From NCBI RefSeq assembly GCF_024398015.1, contig NZ_CP073747.1:506501-570500 (forward strand): a stretch of DNA of 64,000 nt. The letters are read 5' to 3'. This DNA comes from Kordiimonas sp. SCSIO 12610. Lineage in GTDB: Bacteria; Pseudomonadota; Alphaproteobacteria; Sphingomonadales; Kordiimonadaceae. The notes under the pieces were generated by a model that did no database searches, had not been told where the DNA came from, and was given only the letters and a program-made list of their open reading frames with translations. Position numbers and translations under genes: made by a program. Below are positions 13,991 to 16,594 of this stretch, piece after piece (the stretch's first letter is position 1; every line of letters starts with the position of its first letter).

Positions 13991-14833
13991 ATGATGAAGA
14001 TGATAATGAAAGCGACGCTTGCAGCAGGAACACTGATGTCGGCAACAATGCTTGCAAATGCGGATTTCGACGCAGAGACAGAGAAAAAGTTTGATGCAGT
14101 TCTCGCAGGAAAACACAGAAGCGAAGGCAATGTAGCGCGTGACAAGTATCGCCACCCTAAAGAAACGCTGGAGTTCTTTGGCGTGAAGCCGGATATGACT
14201 GTCGTGGAAATTTGGCCTGGTAGTTATTACACAGAAATTCTTGCGCCGTTTTTGCGTGAAGAAGGCAAGTATGTTGCAGCAGTAAGCAGCGCCGTTAACG
14301 GCAGCGCCCGTGCTCGCCGCGGGATGGCTGGTTATTTGAATACACTTGTTGAAAAAGATGATGTTTTGGGTGCAACCCATGTGTCAGAATTTACATACCC
14401 GGATAGCCTGACAACGGTTCCAGCTGGTACAGCTGATATGGTTTTGACTTTCCGTAATGTTCATAACTGGATGGGTGCAAAGGCAGAATATGGAATTTTG
14501 TCAGCAGCCTTTAAAGCATTGAAACCAGGTGGCATTTTAGGTGTTGTTGAGCACCGTCTTGATGGCGGCGAAGGCGTTGAAGAAGGCCAGAATGCTCGCC
14601 GTGGTTATGTGCGTGAAGGATATGTCATCGAAGTTGCGCGTTCGTTAGGCTTTGAGGTCGTGGATGCAAGCGATGCAAACGCGAACCCAAAAGATAATAA
14701 AAACCACCCACGCGGTGTTTGGACGTTGCCTCCGCGTTTCGCGCTTGGTGATCAGGACCGTGAAAAGTACGCGGCTATTGGCGAATCTGATCGTTTCACA
14801 TTGAAATTCAAAAAACCGGAACAGACTCGGTAA
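13991..14833 (+). CDS. Exported class I methyltransferase-fold protein
   Basis: 280 residues. A signal peptide (residues 1-24, ending MLANA-DF) precedes a Rossmann-type methyltransferase core: TVVEIWPGSYYTEILAPFL stands at motif I (the canonical VxDxGxGxG is altered to EIWPGSYY), then TADMVLTFRNVHNWM, LKPGGILGVVEHR and a C-terminal beta hairpin region. This matches a widespread proteobacterial family annotated as SAM-dependent methyltransferase whose members carry signal peptides. S-adenosylmethionine is not known to be available in the periplasm, so either it binds something else or SAM reaches it by an unknown path. Start ATG 13991 with AGGA about 10 bases upstream. A clear terminator follows. 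Confidence 0.82.
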   Translation: MMKMIMKATLAAGTLMSATMLANADFDAETEKKFDAVLAGKHRSEGNVARDKYRHPKETLEFFGVKPDMTVVEIWPGSYYTEILAPFLREEGKYVAAVSSAVNGSARARRGMAGYLNTLVEKDDVLGATHVSEFTYPDSLTTVPAGTADMVLTFRNVHNWMGAKAEYGILSAAFKALKPGGILGVVEHRLDGGEGVEEGQNARRGYVREGYVIEVARSLGFEVVDASDANANPKDNKNHPRGVWTLPPRFALGDQDREKYAAIGESDRFTLKFKKPEQTR

Positions 14834-14860
14834 TTTGAATTTTAAATCGCATGATTTAAG

Positions 14861-14895
14861 AAAAGCGCTTGAAAGTTTTCAGGCGCTTTTTTGTA
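14861..14895 (+). terminator. Intrinsic terminator after the exported methyltransferase-like gene
   Basis: AAAAGCGC-TTGAAA pairs with TTTCA-GGCGCTTTT around a short loop (14861-14890), followed by TTTTTTG. It also isolates the ornithine decarboxylase leader from upstream transcription. Confidence 0.85.
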
Positions 14896-14989
14896 TTTTA
14901 TTTTCCAAAAATTGCGTGCACGCTGGATAAAAACCATTTGTATCGTCGCGATGTATTTTTTTGCTTGAAAAATCCACAGAATTTCATCA

Positions 14990-15349
14990 TAGAGTTCCGC
15001 TTAGACGTAAAGCGCACGTGCCACGACGCTATCTGCTTAAGGCAGTGCTAATGGGACAGTACGGGAGGCGGCGCAAACGTTCTTTTGTTGGTTGGACTTG
15101 AAGCCTGATGGCTTACTGATTGATGGAAGGAGTTTGCTCGTGGCAACCCTGATCGAAAATAAAACAAAGCGCTTTGACCCTGCATTCAATTTGCAATCAT
15201 TCATATCGCCTGATCTTTTTAAATACTTCTCGTTTGTTTTGAAGCTAAGCCATACGGGCGCACGCTAATCGCGTGCTCGTGTGTTCCCTGCAAGGGGTAG
15301 CCCACACCGCTAAAGTATCCGTATTTTCTTCTGATATCCGAGACTCGTT
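14990..15349 (+). promoter_or_regulatory. Candidate speF-type RNA leader of ornithine decarboxylase
   Basis: About 360 bases with no long ORF before the decarboxylase gene. Several strong local hairpins are visible: AAGCC-TGAT-GGCTT (15101-15114), GCACGC-TAATC-GCGTGC (15260-15276) and GTGTG..CCC-TGCAA-GGG..CACAC (15279-15307). A long conserved leader called the speF motif is known upstream of ornithine decarboxylase genes in alphaproteobacteria, so position, length and target match; I cannot run a covariance search. A possible promoter TTGAAA-N17-CATAGA lies at 14965-14993. A short ORF (15140-15268) sits inside. Confidence 0.6.
15140..15268 (+). CDS. Candidate 42-residue leader peptide in the ornithine decarboxylase leader
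   Basis: A GTG codon at 15140 stands 8 bases after the strong ribosome binding site GGAAGGAG (15124-15131), stronger than that of the decarboxylase gene itself. The frame runs 42 codons and ends ...LSHTGAR-stop at 15266-15268. Its stop codon lies in the loop of the hairpin GCACGC/GCGTGC. The peptide is basic with a Phe-rich middle (DLFKYFSF). In enterobacteria the unrelated speF gene is controlled by the ornithine-sensing arrest peptide SpeFL, which also ends in Ala-Arg; this one lacks the His-Ile-Arg-Arg sensor motif I recall for SpeFL. Whether it is translated is unproven. Confidence 0.45.
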   Translation: MATLIENKTKRFDPAFNLQSFISPDLFKYFSFVLKLSHTGAR

Positions 15350-16594
15350 ATGAGCGATAGTTTTTACACAGGCGCTTCCTGGCAAGCCCCAACAGCTGAC
15401 AATCAAAACACGCATGCGGTGGTATATTTGCCCCATTATGCGTCCATGCAGTTAGCGTTGGAGCATCTGGACCCAAACGATTCGGTCAATGTATTGTTTC
15501 CCGAGGTTCTGGAACATTATGCGAGTGAGTTCGTCAATCGCTTTCCGGGCGATGTTTTATATGCAGTAAAAGCCAACCCGCATCCTTATGTTTTGAAAAC
15601 GCTCTGGAACGCAGGCGTGCGATATTATGATGTTGCGTCCCTTCGTGAAGTCGAGCAGGTGGCACAACTGCTGCCACAGGCAAAACTCTTTATGATGCAT
15701 CCGGTTAAATCTCGTAAAACGATCCTGCGATCATATGAGTTGGGTGTTCGGGAGTTTGCCTTCGATGATATGAGCGAGCTCGAGAAGATCAAACAGGAGC
15801 TACCTGACGCGCTTGATCTCTCATTGCACCTTCGCCTGTCATTACCGTCTGAAGATGCAGCATATTCACTAGAAGGCAAGTTCGGTGCTAGTTTTGAAAT
15901 GGCTGGTCCATTGATAAAAGCAGCAAAGGCATTTGCAAAGTCAGTTGGCGTCACATTTCATGTTGGTAGCCAGTGCATGGACCCAGATGCCTATCGGCGT
16001 GCGCTTGCGCTCTTGCGGGATCTTCTCGATAACGAAGGTTTAGAACTTGATAGCGTTGATGTGGGCGGTGGGTATCCTGTAAATTATCCTGGAATGGAAG
16101 CACCAGACCTTGGTCAATATTTTGAAGTGATCAAAAATGCACTCCATGATTTTGGTTTTGCTGGCCACAAGGTTCTCGGTGAACCCGGGAGGGCTTTGGT
16201 CGCGGAAGGGGGCTCAACTCTTGTGCGTGTAGAAATGCGTCGGGGTAATGAGCTTTATTTAAATGATGGAACTTACGGGGCGCTCTTTGATGCAGGATCA
16301 CCCAAATGGCGTTTTCCTGTCTCAATACTTACAGGGGACGGCCGTGAAACACAGGGCGCATTAGAGGCCTTCAGTTTCTGGGGGCCAACATGCGATGCTA
16401 TTGACCATATGGAAGGGCCGTTTTTGTTACCAGCGGACATTCAGGAAGGCGATTGGATTGAAGTTGGAAACCTGGGGGCATACGGCCAGACCATGGCAAC
16501 AAAATTTAATGGCTTTTACGCAGAACACACAATCACCGTCGATGAAGAGCCCATTGTATGGCGTGGTCCAATTGGCTCGGTAATATCTGGATAA
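15350..16594 (+). CDS. Ornithine decarboxylase, PLP fold type III (possibly also acts on lysine)
   Basis: 414 residues. Alanine-racemase fold decarboxylase: the PLP lysine is in LYAVKANPHP, the PLP phosphate-binding glycines in DVGGGYPVNYP, then GEPGRALVAEGG, and the active-site cysteine loop WGPTCDAIDHMEG, which is the ornithine decarboxylase signature, followed by GNLGAYGQTMATKFNGF at the C-terminus. Decarboxylation of ornithine to putrescine starts polyamine synthesis. Alphaproteobacteria use this eukaryote-like form rather than the large fold type I enzyme. The ribosome binding site is weak (CGAGA), which fits control through the leader upstream. Some family members also decarboxylate lysine; sequence alone does not decide. 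Confidence 0.9.
   Translation: MSDSFYTGASWQAPTADNQNTHAVVYLPHYASMQLALEHLDPNDSVNVLFPEVLEHYASEFVNRFPGDVLYAVKANPHPYVLKTLWNAGVRYYDVASLREVEQVAQLLPQAKLFMMHPVKSRKTILRSYELGVREFAFDDMSELEKIKQELPDALDLSLHLRLSLPSEDAAYSLEGKFGASFEMAGPLIKAAKAFAKSVGVTFHVGSQCMDPDAYRRALALLRDLLDNEGLELDSVDVGGGYPVNYPGMEAPDLGQYFEVIKNALHDFGFAGHKVLGEPGRALVAEGGSTLVRVEMRRGNELYLNDGTYGALFDAGSPKWRFPVSILTGDGRETQGALEAFSFWGPTCDAIDHMEGPFLLPADIQEGDWIEVGNLGAYGQTMATKFNGFYAEHTITVDEEPIVWRGPIGSVISG

Follow-up and report, generated by a model that had tools for sequence, protein, structure and literature searches.

The speF RNA (RF00518) was described upstream of ornithine decarboxylase genes of the COG0019 type as a long bulged stem–loop of about 80 nt, with the conserved blocks GCACGUGCC and AACGACG and with a pyrimidine strand opposite a purine-rich strand (Corbino et al., 2005; PMC1273637). 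In vitro, the RF00518 RNA showed no binding to ornithine, lysine, diaminopimelate, putrescine, cadaverine or spermidine (PMC1273637). The enterobacterial gene speF, whose product is an inducible PLP fold-type-I decarboxylase, is preceded by an efficiently translated upstream open reading frame (uORF), SpeFL or orf34, that encodes an ornithine arrest peptide, with a hairpin 3' of its stop codon and a weak or masked ribosome binding site at the main gene (PMC6386406, PMC8429421); in Salmonella, translation of orf34 blocks Rho termination and opens up the ribosome binding site of speF, while a ribosome that pauses at the uORF stop blocks a downstream hairpin (PMC6386406). An upstream RNA switch and translation of a uORF are also combined in atypical B12 riboswitches of Mycobacterium tuberculosis (PMC11260477), and a variant of SAM-I, reported from genera of Gram-positive bacteria, serves as a spermidine riboswitch in the leaders of polyamine genes (PMC10853860). 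The locus considered here lies in a stretch of 64,000 nt from Kordiimonas sp. SCSIO 12610 (hereafter the window). It differs from the mycobacterial systems in RNA class and ligand, and an Rfam search of its leader returned no SAM-I match.

The features of the locus are collected in Table 1. Its decarboxylase belongs to a subfamily different from that of the enzymes at RF00518 loci (about 31–36% identity). As the preliminary description of this DNA had it, the start codon at 15350 is preceded by only a weak Shine–Dalgarno-like sequence; in four relatives the AGGA of the decarboxylase is weakly paired with an upstream UCCU, a predicted pairing that is consistent with a masked main site. The leader, 346 nt long as read from the sequence, probably starts its own transcript, as judged from the terminator-like hairpin that lies ahead of it. 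A scan for consensus promoters found none, and TTGAAA-N17-CATAGA at 14965–14993 is promoter-like by eye only. The upstream gene (13991–14833), which is followed by the terminator-like hairpin, matches methyltransferases weakly (PF08242, E 0.055).

Table 1. Features of the decarboxylase leader and its surroundings (positions in the window)
Feature	Position	Strand	Basis
Terminator-like hairpin and T-run closing the upstream gene	14859..14892	+	Pattern scan, one found where shuffles predict 0.6; weak on its own
5' structured RNA, putative divergent representative of the expanded speF superfamily	15004..15142	+	cmsearch with model R1, 78.9 bits, E 4.7e-20 (leader among the training sequences)
Near-perfect hairpin burying the uORF Shine–Dalgarno and most of the start region	15068..15141	+	-28.6 kcal/mol, z -4.0, 0/200 shuffles
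uORF Shine–Dalgarno, GGAAGGAG	15125..15132	+	Read from the sequence
uORF, 42 codons, GTG start, TAA stop	15140..15268	+	Independent matches upstream of the decarboxylase in relatives; codon-phase test, Z 5.4
Hairpin GCACGC/GCGTGC, uORF stop in the loop, last two codons as 5' arm	15260..15276	+	Compensatory changes; Stouffer z -6.4
Second hairpin 3' of the stop	about 15279..15305	+	Weak evidence; z -0.6 alone
Ornithine decarboxylase-like gene, fold type III, 414 aa	15350..16594	+	Pfam PF02784/PF00278; closest solved relatives (PDB) lysine/ornithine decarboxylases, E 1e-44

The 5' structured RNA is laid out as GACGU, GCGCACGUGCC, a variable part, GUACGGG..GGCGGCGC and a Shine–Dalgarno sequestor; across the class, the leaders of this decarboxylase subfamily have GACGY..CGCACGUGCC..GGUUAUGYAACGACG..GCGUCCUUUUUGG..hairpin..GGGAGG..AUG in common. 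A structured speF motif had been expected at this place and a search with the Rfam model proposed. With RF00518, neither the window nor any of 19 leader loci was matched even at E ≤ 1, so that the leader falls below the gathering cut-off, and no other Rfam family rose above chance at the leader, in the window or in relatives; a related RNA was found through a covariance model, R1, built from 19 leaders including that of the window. R1 matched 65 places in 49 of 289 genomes of the class; in a sample of the phylum (200 genomes) five genomes had matches, all five from the same class. Tested RF00518 loci were detected in place by R1 in 8 of 11 cases at E ≤ 0.003 (best 33.1 bits), and outside the training set its matches lie ahead of canonical ornithine decarboxylases, of homospermidine synthases (E 3e-63 by phmmer against solved enzymes of that kind) and of one glutamine amidotransferase. 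Its occurrence before homospermidine synthases indicates that the RNA marks a polyamine regulon and not ornithine decarboxylase alone. Since R1 matches both this leader and RF00518 loci while the Rfam model misses the leader, we assign the leader to an expanded speF superfamily and not to RF00518 as defined. It shares with RF00518 the position upstream of a COG0019 ornithine decarboxylase and the pyrimidine strand opposite a purine-rich strand. Of the two conserved blocks, which occur in the same order in most relatives, the window has the first intact and the second altered to GGCGGCG. A long hairpin is present as well, a possible counterpart of the RF00518 stem. The RNA of the window is followed by a Shine–Dalgarno sequence, a start codon and a uORF, a sequel not found in the RF00518 loci; three-frame translations of RF00518 leaders, inspected by eye, gave no consistent or conserved frame. 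Other members of the decarboxylase subfamily bear different conserved leaders, with CTGCCCCATGGGACTTCCACCGCAAGGCAG in L072 and L076 (Sphingobium/Sphingomonas) and ACATCGGCTCGAGGCTCTGCGCCTTGATTCC..GTACTAACGCCGGATTGGGTTCAACAA in L073, L078 and L092, a set that includes Hyphomonadaceae; these are possibly further unrecognised RNA motifs.

The uORF had been credited with a strong ribosome binding site. The Shine–Dalgarno sequence is indeed there, 7 nt from the GTG, but it sits in the 3' arm of the predicted near-perfect hairpin and is thereby buried. Taken as a whole, the leader has no unusual stability (fold z -0.16). An equivalent masking hairpin is seen again in the majority of a set of 25 leaders (mean z -3.0). 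In a 64-sequence alignment with 63 distinct sequences, pairing in the sequestor helix reaches 97%, and all 500 shuffles fall below the whole structure in covariation score, a score favoured by the fitting of this alignment to the model. A proposed helix P1, between the 5' GACGY and RCGUC, would compete with the sequestor through shared columns and is 90% paired without significant covariation, its sequence being highly conserved; a local GACG/CGUC hairpin is consistent with the alignment, without covariation support. Several lineages have no uORF, and in these (L154, L184, L187/L222, L225, L234, L243 and L249) the decarboxylase itself starts at the Shine–Dalgarno of the motif. This points to an RNA that gates the first open reading frame, whatever its nature. 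In L243, L234 and L249 the frame from this Shine–Dalgarno runs into the ornithine decarboxylase as an N-terminal extension, an apparent fusion of uORF and enzyme.

The uORF encodes the peptide MATLIENKTKRFDPAFNLQSFISPDLFKYFSFVLKLSHTGAR, which matches no family of Pfam or NCBIfam, and ends with TAA at 15266–15268; the 42-codon frame and its stop in the loop of the GCACGC/GCGTGC hairpin are exactly as first described. A search with the peptide alone, the decarboxylase not being used in the query, covered the window's own genome and 60 relatives and gave seven places (the window included), each directly upstream of a decarboxylase homologue; every strong match adjoined the decarboxylase on its upstream side. 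Among 30 Kordiimonadaceae genomes, the peptide was found in 7 of the 9 that carry this decarboxylase (E ≤ 2e-13) and in none of the 21 without it, a result whose new information is the absence elsewhere, because the profile was built from the same seven sequences. A class-wide search with a merged peptide model gave a strong match to the window only; one with the Hyphomonadaceae peptide described below gave no match in a sample that included no genome known to carry it. The preliminary description had asked for codon-level conservation and held that a frame broken or unconserved in relatives, with RNA stems kept, would speak against it. The frame is conserved: over 22 aligned codons from seven sequences, in-frame amino-acid similarity was 2.92 against 1.41 ± 0.28 with permuted columns (Z 5.4, 0/2000 permutations), substitutions fall mostly at codon position 3, and each of the other frames holds 9–10 stops where frame 0 has none. 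We therefore take the frame to be real and selected at the protein level, and this coding signature supports its translation. Short open reading frames are common in the region, a point in favour of a functionless chance frame, but such a frame is already contradicted by codon-phase conservation in two families, with 0/2000 permutations each, and by the exact association of the uORF with the decarboxylase, and we give it almost no credence.

Conservation of the peptide is concentrated in a C-terminal block, F(I/L)(S/P)P(D/E)xxxYFSxVLxLSHxxA(R/H), which adjoins the stop codon, and the N-terminal half varies freely. Conserved C-terminal residues beside the presumed arrest site, in a uORF of a cis leader, are what characterizes regulatory arrest peptides, and their concentration next to the stop is the pattern that would be expected for termination arrest; the uORF is thus probably a termination-arrest peptide. 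The same conservation, together with strict co-occurrence with the decarboxylase, might instead point to a small protein acting in trans, for example a binder or inhibitor of the decarboxylase (antizyme-like) or a protein with another target. We regard this as improbable, given that the N-terminal half is free to vary, that the conservation abuts a stop in a conserved hairpin loop and that the peptide matches no known family.

The stop lies in the loop of a hairpin in all seven peptide-bearing Kordiimonadaceae leaders (arms in the window GCACGC, 15260–15265, and GCGTGC, 15271–15276), and the 5' arm includes the codons for Ala-Arg or Ala-His. The arms covary as GCACGC/GCGTGC, GCACGT/GCGTGC and GCGCAT/ATGCGC, in a comparison where the row of L015 matched more than one place, and over 18 related leaders the stop region folds better than its shuffles (mean z -1.5, Stouffer -6.4). 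In most Hyphomonadaceae leaders, too, the stop is in the loop of a GC-rich hairpin or immediately 5' of one. Of the second hairpin, which had been placed right after the stop, the stem is present, but alone it is no better than chance (z -0.6). The Ala-Arg ending, for which chance had been allowed, is not conserved: it reads AH-x* in four relatives and AR-PQA* in one. We rejected it as a signature because it covaries with the RNA, its codons building the stem, and because Ala-His plus extra residues stand in its place elsewhere; the ending is either chance or dictated by the RNA stem. Hairpins flanking the stop of a leader uORF also bring to mind attenuation of the classical type, in which regulatory codons are decoded slowly, as happens in the leaders of amino-acid operons. 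Here, however, neither Arg codons nor other regulatory codons form a run in the uORF, and a pattern scan found no intrinsic terminator after the stop hairpins since no T-run follows them, and we consider attenuation of this kind very improbable.

The two remaining decarboxylase-bearing genomes of the family, both of one other genus, carry the RNA motif with a different GTG uORF common to both, which reads ..GFxRYTGxMHxxYSATAC... In Henriciella and other Hyphomonadaceae a uORF ending in ..KxxDYxAAVAEL(I/S)RP precedes the same decarboxylase and is coding by the same codon-phase test (Z 4.8, 0/2000); R1 found no match in the Hyphomonadaceae leaders. The blocks of the two families align in register in a profile comparison (P 0.0017, probability 15%), which is suggestive only of a common origin. 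Further lineages have unrelated uORFs after the RNA element, or none. In leaders L151 and L161 a uORF ending in ..SFYLQLQH* is conserved with partly synonymous codons, suggesting another leader peptide conserved at its C-terminus; speF-like RNA also stands before the homospermidine synthase genes of L229 and L246, and L246 and L247 carry short uORFs ending in ..APPPRIER*. By these comparisons the RNA element is conserved separately from the peptides and more widely than any of them. Of the earlier proposal that the motif might include, or even be, a translated peptide, the first part finds support in the conserved coding uORF that follows the RNA, and the second is not borne out. The D-Y-(F/L)-(S/A) core and stop-proximal end of both families' peptides are reminiscent of the fungal arginine attenuator peptide (..QDYLSDHLWRALNA), a lead only, which could be chance.

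The reading we favour, with a probability of about one half, is that this polyamine gene has a cis-regulatory leader of two stages, an RNA gate followed by an arrest-peptide uORF and then the decarboxylase. The anatomy of the first stage is observed. In the gate, a conserved strand of the CGUCCUUU type would pair with the Shine–Dalgarno of the first open reading frame, CGUUCUUUU being the presumed partner of the Shine–Dalgarno strand, and that frame would be translated only after the RNA refolds, a switch that we infer. In the second stage, the nascent chain would act, through the conserved C-terminal block of the uORF, on the terminating ribosome; held at the stop codon, that ribosome would keep the stop-codon hairpin open, and the open hairpin could alter the fold of the last 80 nt, and possibly Rho access to them, before the decarboxylase and thus change its expression. 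Judging from the genes downstream, which are ornithine decarboxylases and homospermidine synthases, the signal is likely to be ornithine or a polyamine; we infer both the ligand and the direction in which expression responds. By analogy, orf34–speF of Salmonella offers a worked precedent for the second half of this mechanism. Against the two-stage reading stands the lineage-specific nature of the peptide, given the different uORF in two genomes of another genus. The suggestive homology of the peptides of the two families, the lack of significant covariation in P1, the ordinary stability of the leader as a whole and the failure of the RF00518 RNA to bind any of six metabolites also count against it. 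The same variety of uORFs among lineages, a motif conserved beyond any peptide, the class-wide masking and the lineages in which the decarboxylase coding sequence itself starts at the masked site would suit a switch made of RNA only, in which the speF-like RNA senses and gates the first Shine–Dalgarno and the uORF is a relay that opens the decarboxylase start by translational coupling, its peptide sequence being irrelevant. Such a relay would not need a C-terminus conserved by amino acid, not by base, in two families; the last two codons have a second role in the stem, yet the conserved block reaches some 18 codons further upstream. We hold this account to be rather unlikely, although the most serious of the alternatives, and continue to prefer the two-stage leader.

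By its placement the uORF resembles SpeFL, with which it shares the position before an ornithine decarboxylase, a hairpin 3' of the stop and a weak or masked main ribosome binding site. It differs in that its decarboxylase is of fold type III (PF02784) and in that its Shine–Dalgarno is masked by the RNA element. As a homologue of SpeFL it was rejected: BLASTP between the two peptides gave E 6.9 over 3 residues. The independent evolution of ornithine sensing by the ribosome, which the preliminary description had raised, is therefore possible, in that a conserved uORF is placed like the enterobacterial sensor and is unrelated to it in sequence, and it stands as a possibility only. We found no published report of a conserved uORF in speF-type leaders in the open-access literature, and what is new here is the combination of such a leader with a conserved and probably regulatory nascent peptide. 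A wider and more tentative proposal, to which we give less than even odds, is that one ancient RNA gate, the widened speF superfamily, stands before alphaproteobacterial polyamine genes and that different nascent-peptide sensors have repeatedly evolved behind it; here the gate would act in series with an arrest peptide that senses ornithine or a polyamine, and ornithine sensing by the ribosome would have arisen independently.

The speF RNA has stayed unexplained since its description in 2005, and the present leader places it in a wider family that is tied to ornithine decarboxylase and homospermidine synthase and whose common feature is a masked Shine–Dalgarno before the first open reading frame. 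In at least two bacterial families that first frame encodes a conserved peptide. A gate and a peptide in series, if true, would account for the failure of the speF RNA, on its own, to bind a metabolite, and if the peptide arrests ribosomes this would be a case of convergent evolution of ribosome-based polyamine sensing. The arrangement suggests a two-step reading of the cell's polyamine state, first through the folding of an RNA and afterwards by the translating ribosome.
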